From IMG/VR virus record IMGVR_UViG_3300035157_000353, positions 1 to 22,492 of that record: a stretch of DNA of 22,492 bases; one strand, written 5' to 3'. The translations under genes and the position numbers were made by a program. Positions 14,470-19,540 of the stretch are shown here, one piece after another; the stretch's first letter is position 1; every line of letters starts with the position of its first letter. The DNA is from a virus. A model generated the notes under the pieces. The model did no database searches. It had not been told where the DNA came from and was given only the letters and a program-made list of their open reading frames with translations.

Positions 14470-14697
14470 ATTGTTTTGTATTAAGTGTATTTGTCTTGTA
14501 GTAGGGTGGGAGGTTGGAATTATGTATACCAACAAGTAAGGGGCATTGCTACATGAGTAGATTTTTACCTCACTGTCTGAGACCCGACTGGTAAGTCGAT
14601 TCACCTTTCGGTGCAGCACCACCTGTGTCTCATCACCTTAACTAGCCTTATGCCAGCAAGTTTATTCAGTCACTCCCGTGTCAGGGAGCGACCCCGA
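14470..14697 (-). promoter_or_regulatory. Long multi-hairpin 5' leader of gp32
   Basis: About 228 nt without a credible gene. From the 5' end: a 7-bp hairpin CGCTCCC/GGGAGTG with loop TGACAC (14690-14671); a branched block closed by GAGAC (14632-14628) and GTCTC (14584-14580) that contains CACCGAAAGGTG with a GNRA loop and CGACTTACCAGTCG; and CTACTCATGTAG (14560-14549). The last 70 nt are A/C-rich and unpaired up to the ATG. T4 gp32 is repressed by its own protein through a leader pseudoknot and an unstructured stretch; this leader has room for the same. It may also match one of the named cyanophage leader RNA motifs, which I cannot compare from memory. Confidence 0.55.
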
Positions 14698-14703
14698 CAT
14701 TTA

Positions 14704-19006: not shown

Positions 19007-19021
19007 CTCGACTTTCTACAC

Positions 19022-19052
19022 AAAAAAATCTGGGAAAAAATTTTCCCAGATT
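19022..19052 (-). terminator. Strong intrinsic terminator
   Basis: AATCTGGGAAAA and TTTTCCCAGATT form a perfect 12-bp inverted repeat (19027-19052) with a 2-nt centre. On the leftward strand the stem runs straight into a T-run (19028-19022). It ends the unit of two small genes above. A second 8-bp hairpin, AACCAAAA/TTTTGGTT (19059-19079), lies just after it on the map and includes the stop codon of the 46-aa gene. Confidence 0.8.
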
Positions 19053-19077
19053 CCTGTAAACCAAAAGTGATTTTTGG

Positions 19078-19218
19078 TTAGCTCTTAGAAGCGAACTTGC
19101 GTTTCACTTTGATACCACGATACATTAGATCATGGTTTCTCTTTTGAGCTTCTGTTTGTACCATTTGACGGTACGCTTCAGAGTCGTACTTGACTCCACG
19201 GTAAGTGACTTGTGCCAT
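19078..19218 (-). CDS. DUF4278-like 46-aa protein
   Basis: A short gene read from ATG 19218 to TAA 19078. The product is MAQVTYRGVKYDSEAYRQMV, then QTEAQKRNHDLMYRGIKVKR and KFASKS. Two copies of the Y-R-G-[VI]-K motif (residues 6-10 and 33-37) match the short DUF4278 family found in cyanobacteria and their phages. A good Shine-Dalgarno, AGAGGA, lies 8 nt upstream. It follows the 60-aa gene after 39 nt and ends at the terminator, so the two form one unit under the riboswitch-like leader. No function is known. Confidence 0.75.
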   Translation of the reverse strand: MAQVTYRGVKYDSEAYRQMVQTEAQKRNHDLMYRGIKVKRKFASKS

Positions 19219-19257
19219 TGGCTTGTCCTCTGGATTGGGTGGATAAGACCCGTTCCT

Positions 19258-19440
19258 TCAGTCGGCATTTGCGTCCCAGTTACAACCAGATTCGGTAGCG
19301 TCCTTGACTGTCTGAATAACTTCAGCGTCAGCGACTTCACCGTACTCGCTTCTTACATCACCTAGTAATTCGTATGCTTGATCACAAGTCAAGAGACTCA
19401 TGTTAGCGAACATTAAACTGGGTAGTAAGAAATGTATCAT
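19258..19440 (-). CDS. Small secreted peptide behind a riboswitch-like leader
   Basis: A 60-aa protein. Residues 1-18 (MIHFLLPSLMFANMSLLT) are hydrophobic and signal-like, though without a basic start. The mature part begins at C19 in TCDQAYELLGDV and ends SGCNWDANAD with C53, so one disulfide is possible. I recall similar short secreted cysteine-pair peptides in cyanophages, without a known function. The ATG directly follows the putative glutamine-sensing RNA: only 9 nt separate the aptamer from the start codon. In the Downstream-peptide class of these RNAs the regulated gene is also a short conserved peptide, which fits. Confidence 0.7.
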   Translation of the reverse strand: MIHFLLPSLMFANMSLLTCDQAYELLGDVRSEYGEVADAEVIQTVKDATESGCNWDANAD

Positions 19441-19448
19441 GGGATGAA

Positions 19449-19504
19449 CGTTCCGTTCCGTGTCGGCTTACTTGCGGCTCCTATATTTATGGGAGCTGAA
19501 CGAT
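19449..19504 (-). promoter_or_regulatory. Glutamine riboswitch-like aptamer (glnA/Downstream-peptide type)
   Basis: Read leftward from 19504: ATCGTTCA, hairpin GCTCC...GGAGC (P2, 19496-19477), CGCAAGTAAG (19476-19467), hairpin CCG-ACA-CGG (P3, 19466-19458), then AACGGAACG (19457-19449). CGTTC (19502-19498) pairs with the final GAACG as P1. This is the order and much of the sequence of the glnA/Downstream-peptide RNAs, whose consensus as I recall is CGUUCA-P2-CGGAAGUAGG-P3-CGAAGGAACG. Differences are a few bases in the core and one extra base before the 3' strand. Glutamine binds this class. P1's 3' strand holds GGAACG, the only candidate ribosome site for the ATG at 19440, so ligand binding could hide it. 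Confidence 0.65.
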
Positions 19505-19505
19505 T

Positions 19506-19521
19506 GTGTTAATATTAACAC
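19506..19521. promoter_or_regulatory. Perfect 16-bp palindrome (operator candidate)
   Basis: GTGTTAATATTAACAC is a perfect palindrome lying against the 5' end of the riboswitch-like RNA. It either covers the start site of a TATAAT promoter (19533-19528) or contains the -10 box (TAATAT) of a TTGACT promoter. This is the right place for a repressor dimer to block transcription. It could also form a hairpin in RNA. Which protein might bind is unknown. Confidence 0.5.
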
Positions 19522-19540
19522 AGGTATATTATATAGTCAA
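19512..19540 (-). promoter_or_regulatory. sigma70-like promoter of the riboswitch unit
   Basis: TTGACT (19540-19535), a 17-nt spacer and TAATAT (19517-19512) would start RNA near 19505, exactly at the 5' end of the aptamer. An alternative -10, TATAAT (19533-19528), has no good -35 and would start near 19520. Either way the region lies between the end of the oxygenase gene (19577) and the aptamer. A late-type CATAAATA also occurs within P2, but its start would cut off half of the aptamer. Confidence 0.45.

Follow-up and report, generated by a model that had tools for sequence, protein, structure and literature searches.

The leader on the minus strand of a 22,492-base virus record (the window, that is the whole stretch analysed; all leader coordinates below refer to its minus strand) is probably best explained, as a whole, as a glutamine riboswitch in which two interlocked, strand-swapped aptamers share a helix P3 and hold a nested gene. 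The architecture, the nested coding gene and the putative partner gene downstream are shown by comparison with relatives. Judging by its sequence, the window is from a T4-like cyanophage; Pfam matches to heme oxygenase, ThyX and 2OG-Fe(II) oxygenases were found in it, and the leader locus is flanked by a 2OG oxygenase gene and thyX. An earlier note on this DNA was right in taking the locus for a glutamine-riboswitch-type RNA carried by a phage. Elsewhere in the window a manA RNA (RF01745, 166 bits) was found at 14503-14699, also on the minus strand, directly 5′ of a gp32-like gene (ssDNA-binding protein). Gene 32 of T4 is regulated through a pseudoknot in its own leader.

The motifs CGTTCA, P2, CGCAAGTAAG and GGAACG are present at 19502-19454 in the order that the earlier note had described, and a degenerate pattern for this order gave no match in 100 shuffles. 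Both glutamine riboswitch models of Rfam match this element in Infernal, as had been expected, but no match reaches a curated cut-off at this locus: RF01739 scores 32.3 bits (E 2.8e-5 for 401 bases and all families) against a gathering score of 35, and RF01704 scores 23.5 bits against a cut-off of 33. The element was supposed to end at 19441, as a single aptamer in front of a peptide gene. This reading was rejected, since a second half (19278-19250), about 180 nt downstream of the first, overlaps the end of the 60-aa ORF, which places the gene inside the RNA. In relatives the composite has the same order, with the second CGTTCA a few nt past the first GGAACG and later a P2-like stem, CGCAAA and GAAGGAACGG; this second P2-like stem is a short hairpin in some loci and encloses an ORF in others. 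In the window, the 5′ strand of the outer P1, CGUUCA (19497-19502), pairs in the swapped model with the second GGAACG. It is followed by the P2 hairpin GCUCC...GGAGC (19477-19496), which covaries and whose loop is short here and holds an ORF in other phages, by the outer core CGCAAGUA (19469-19476), made up of the ligand-pocket CGx and of AAGUA as the 5′ half of the loop-E motif, and by the 5′ strand of P3, AGCCGACA (19461-19468), which pairs with 19267-19260. The first GGAACG (19454-19459) is the 3′ strand of the inner P1 and forms the hairpin GAACG-GAA-CGUUC with 19450-19446, the second CGUUCA (19445-19450) being the 5′ strand. Next come UCCCA (19440-19444), the 5′ strand of P2′, whose last base is the A of the AUG, and its partner UGGGA (19274-19278) near the end of the nested ORF. 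The inner core CGCAAA (19268-19273), whose third base pairs in the swapped model with the base after the first GGAACG, the 3′ strand of P3, UGCCGACU (19260-19267), and GAAGGAACG-G (19250-19259), with the 3′ half of loop E, the 3′ strand of the outer P1 and the long-range partner G, complete the element. The pocket bases expected for RF01739 (CGUUC/GAACG, the G of CGx and the long-range pair) are all present in the window, and so are its three-way junction and a loop E (AAGUA/GAA) beside a base-paired P3, AAGUA and [G/A]AA flanking P3. The H-type pseudoknot of RF01704 (P1 helix and adjacent second helix) was not found; covariation gives each GGAACG to the CGx of the other element.

Relatives were gathered by pattern scans of viral contigs, which yielded hundreds of contigs with the leader. 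Ordinary aptamers of the glnA type, which the first scan had picked up as well, were set apart, and the comparison set consists of 384 distinct composites, mostly from viral contigs. It may be noted that two scans picked pocket variants on one side (an outer CGG in one, a base other than G after the first GGAACG in the other) and left the partner bases free. The element was present in 14 of 14 isolate genomes read, which were chosen by BLAST match and give no prevalence estimate; in P-SSM2 it was read by eye because the core is CGCAGA. A P2′ ORF is found in S-SSM7, P-RSM6, S-BM1, SynMITS9220M01, S-SZBM1, S-RIM2 and P-SSM2, ORFs in both P2 and P2′ in P-SSM4, S-IOM18, S-CAM1 and Sf-CH3, and no nested ORF in S-PM2, P-TIM68 and Bellamy, nor in the single-cell phage contig AG-345-P14. 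Bacterial and archaeal genomes, scanned with one exact pattern for the second half, gave 6 matches within host or metagenome bins, one of them on a 189,106-base contig that is in IMG/VR too. As all 6 look like phage sequence, the composite appears to be phage-borne. At one locus (L077, 6503-6850) two composites are apparently fused, with a phrog_6471-type ORF in between, and a divergent composite (L098, 2939-3050) has a wholly different P3 (AGGCAUAA/UUAUGUCU) and GGA in place of GAA in loop E.

A common pocket is seen in crystals of the glutamine-I and -II aptamers, with C1:G40, the triple G18>G2:C39 and a helix-closing long-range pair, which is C19:G41 in class II and has an equivalent in class I (PMC6698751). 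This long-range pair served as our test, with the class I consensus read as CGG with GGAACG-C and class II as CGC with GGAACG-G. Across the 384 relatives the long-range pairs show one predicted strand-swapped double aptamer, a swap that rests on one such pair per pocket plus P3: the outer CGx is complementary to the base that follows the second GGAACG in 384/384 composites, and the inner CGx to the base that follows the first in 375/384; the highest counts given by shuffles were 272 (outer) and 346 (inner). The P1 drawn in the earlier note, between the first CGTTCA and the first GGAACG, is contradicted by this covariation. If instead the locus held two ordinary tandem glutamine aptamers, each with a P1 of its own, P3 would be a kissing contact and the ORF would just lie in the second loop. 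Tandem glnA RNAs are known (PMC2864571), true tandem pairs occur among the fetched loci (L025, L037 and L110), and either half alone resembles RF01739 (about 32-40 bits for the second, often above the cut-off, and about 19-29 for the first). But with each element using its own GGAACG the matches drop to 275 and 276 of 384, both together in 272, and the 112/384 loci in which both long-range pairs are not satisfied, against 9 for the swapped pairing, led us to reject tandem aptamers. Moreover, with the loop-E half AAGUA in one element and the half GAA in the other, a tandem reading would leave neither with a complete loop E of its own, and we consider a tandem arrangement quite improbable. As regards the swapped arrangement, pocket C-to-G variants arise separately, the outer in 89 loci (12 downstream-sequence clusters) and the inner in 18 loci (7 clusters); loci are not independent events, but the pocket pairs have changed in no fewer than two directions. 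Most loci have a C-G long-range pair as opposed to G-C in glutamine-I. The core does depart from the glnA consensus, as had been pointed out, but the main departure is compensated, CGC with GGAACG-G replacing CGG with GGAACG-C, which argues against the changed ligand that had been considered. Many short-loop relatives score 35-42 bits with RF01739, and for one of them the model returns the swapped alignment, with the outer P1 and a 46-nt insert in P3 (39.0 bits). For other loci it scored the halves separately, and therefore the model alone does not settle the swap.

Compensating changes in homologous leaders, which the earlier note had set as its own test, were found in P3 and P2′. P3 joins both halves, the strand after CGCAAGUA pairing with the strand before GAAGG of the second half, and takes the forms AGUCG/CGACU, AGUCA/UGACU, AGCCGAC[A,U,G]/[U,A,C]GCCGACU and rarer ones. 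In the long class its last pair is A-U, U-A or G-C in 180/180 loci, a count that none of 1000 shuffles reaches, 119 being expected by shuffling; two C-A mismatches of this long form are kept in most loci. P2′ covaries in ORF-bearing loci (GATTATGG/CCATAATC, CCCC/GGGG and TCTAT/ATAGA), and compensatory changes maintain it although the loops are about 130-200 nt long. The four P1 strands hardly vary, also where the scan had left them free, and because of this invariance no covariation was seen in P1. In the window P2′ has only 5 bp and pairs the first base of the AUG alone, and unconstrained folding of the window leader with the ORF did not return the composite as the minimum energy structure.

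The nested ORF of the window (19258-19440, 60 aa, phrog_504 family) is enclosed by P2′ and stops with UGA at the border of P3 and loop E, its C-terminus DANAD being encoded by nucleotides of the aptamer core. An ATG had been placed 9 nt past the aptamer; it is there, at 19440, but the distance is 13 nt when counted from the first GGAACG and 8 nt when counted from the overlapping repeat GGAACGGAACG. The cysteine pair described for this peptide is likewise present, and exactly two cysteines are encoded by 304/304 nested ORFs, whose families are phrog_504 and phrog_6471. The phrog_504 profile matches the window peptide with E 9.1e-6 and a relative with 2e-26. AlphaFold on the 60-aa peptide with 36 relatives (a modest mean pLDDT of 73.8) predicts two helices, 19-33 and 39-47, with one cysteine at the start of the first helix and one after the second. 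Among the 384 composites, 250 have an ORF in one or both P2 loops (P2′ only 147, P2 only 49, both 54, neither 134), fractions that depend on the scan patterns and should not be taken for prevalences. The P2′ ORF starts 3-6 nt past CGUUCA in 201/201 cases and stops at one aptamer position, just before the second GGAACG, in 189/201, and hence the C-termini read DAND, DANAD, DAKAD and similar; the whole AUG is paired in 67/201. Many P2 ORFs have GRK at the end, with the UAA of CGCAAGUAAG as stop. GGAG stands just 5′ of the nested AUG in 42/142 ORF loci; it arises from GAG or GAGC linkers, which loci without an ORF in P2′ seldom have. The nested ORFs evolve under purifying selection, with dN/dS of about 0.31 for P2′ ORFs and 0.15 for P2 ORFs and every computable pair below 1. 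One may ask if the gene is a mere passenger of a glutamine riboswitch whose P2 loops tolerate insertions, such that it is read constitutively and regulation acts on the downstream DUF4278 gene only. The RNA is kept without any ORF in 84/258 loci of the first set, so the aptamer can do without the gene, and the P2 ORFs, about 12 nt from the presumed early transcription start, would be nearly leaderless. Yet the AUG begins within the stem in 183 of the 201 P2′ ORFs, the stop is fixed within the core and compensatory changes keep P2′ despite the long loops, which makes a passenger gene unlikely in our view.

In the model of two interlocked aptamers, the outer one (5′ part 19502-19461, 3′ part 19267-19250) would have the class-I glnA layout of P1, P2, CGCAAGUA, P3 and GAAGGAACG, and the inner one (second CGUUCA, P2′, CGCAAA, first GGAACG) would be a circular permutation with its P1 closed by a three-base loop. 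The P2′ stem would enclose the complete 60-aa gene, with the AUG at the stem and the stop in the core. To translate the nested ORF, a ribosome would have to unwind P2′ and P3 and get as far as the outer P1, and on termination it would cover P3 and P1 strands; translation and the folded, ligand-bound aptamer would therefore be mutually exclusive. We infer that glutamine is the likely ligand; the pocket bases match the glutamine-binding ones of the glutamine-I and -II structures (compared with PMC6698751). Bound glutamine would lock P2′ and keep the nested gene off, and it would turn on DUF4278 as in the host glutamine-II switch, so that the two proteins would be made reciprocally. In host glutamine-II switches, glutamine turns translation on (Klahn 2018, as cited in PMC6698751), an analogy that weakly suggests the direction of control on the phage DUF4278. 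Repression of the nested gene by glutamine, with DUF4278 permitted, would then be the likeliest reading. Alternatively, translation of the nested ORF might itself be the sensor, with ribosome movement and not glutamine deciding the folding, as in leader-peptide attenuation. Start and stop lie at the two ends of the element, so P3 and P1 would read out ribosome occupancy directly, but the glutamine pocket bases are kept, the same RNA also occurs without an ORF and the encoded peptides evolve as proteins; we give this very little credence. If the aptamer is an interlocked pocket pair, one RNA would thus switch two proteins in opposite directions. The full combination, that is selected genes inside ligand-binding RNA loops, codons supplied by the aptamer, interlocked pockets, two oppositely switched proteins and perhaps a cooperative glutamine response, is put forward tentatively, with a little less than an even chance of holding in all its parts.

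The second ORF, earlier called DUF4278-like, is a 46-aa gene (19078-19218, minus strand) that matches PF14105 above the gathering cut-off (26.9 vs 25.3 bits) and phrog_5049 with 1.7e-20. Wherever a locus has enough sequence, a DUF4278-type YRG motif is found downstream (110/110 loci), and a glutamine-II RNA of Prochlorococcus (host locus L244) likewise precedes a DUF4278 gene. After the window gene, a terminator-like hairpin with a T run is seen at 19015-19060 on folding 19075-19010; it is not listed by the consensus scan. Upstream, the promoter said to start at the aptamer was recovered as TTGACT-17-TAATAT (19540-19512, minus strand, 9/12 matches in the scan). Its -35 hexamer TTGACT (19535-19540) overlaps CTATATA (19536-19530), which is similar to the T4-type late promoter motif, so that transcription could begin both at the aptamer (early) and ahead of the inverted repeat (late). 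The commonest -35/late-like form in relatives is TTGACTATATA/TTGACTAAATA, upstream of the aptamer in about 190 loci; in S-PM2, the late motif NATAAATA and genes with early and late promoters together have been described (PMC2984593). The palindrome noticed over the promoter is the perfect inverted repeat TGTGTTAATATTAACACA (19505-19522), which covers the -10 TAATAT (19517-19512) and is conserved as a repeat: arms of at least 6 are found in 204/250 distinct upstream regions vs about 8% of shuffles, while the arms themselves vary between phages (GTGTTA..TAACAC, GGTCTA..TAGACC, GGTATG..CATACC and others). The Prochlorococcus glutamine-II loci (L243 and L244) have an NtcA-form palindrome, GTA-N8-TAC, immediately 5′ of the aptamer, where the phages have their inverted repeats, some of which share this form (GGTATGCTAACATACC, TGTAGCAATTGCTACA).

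Compared with glutamine-I (glnA, RF01739), the composite has the same P1 (CGUUC/GAACG), P2, CGxAAGUA, P3, GAAGGAACG and pocket-closing long-range pair, and loop-E halves flank P3 in both. It differs in that a second aptamer, circularly permuted, is set into an opened P3, that ORFs lie in the P2 loops and that the window score is below the Rfam cut-off. With glutamine-II (Downstream-peptide, RF01704) it shares CGCA and GGAACGG with a C-G long-range pair, and the DUF4278 gene downstream (Prochlorococcus), but it is without the H-type pseudoknot with its adjacent P3 strand; the glutamine-II crystal is a strand-exchanged dimer (PMC6698751), whereas here the strand exchange would be within one RNA. 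Cyanophage glutamine riboswitches have already been reported (PMC9964418, PMC9602691). The glnA RNAs of S-CREM1 and others were assigned to the same family and come from phages of the same kind, and the S-CREM1 match spans 99 nt and would fit a composite; the portion of PMC9964418 considered here describes neither interlocked halves nor ORFs inside the aptamer for them. Melnitz and Mosig, phages of marine heterotrophs, also bear a glutamine riboswitch, that of Melnitz at the tmRNA gene, and no nested ORF is described for either in the corresponding portion of PMC9004378. We found no description of an interlocked double aptamer or of enclosed genes in the open-access literature, a scope outside which lie supplements that may hold one, such as that of Weinberg 2010, in which a conserved peptide sequence that might have a part in regulation is reportedly discussed.

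Should the swapped double pocket prove real, it would be a natural single-RNA case of the strand exchange seen as the glutamine-II crystal dimer and would offer a ready test of cooperative glutamine sensing. To our knowledge, a riboswitch aptamer otherwise precedes its gene; in this widespread group of marine cyanophages the aptamer holds the gene within it. The phage families phrog_504 and phrog_6471 thereby gain a regulatory context, which would be the nitrogen status of the host during infection.
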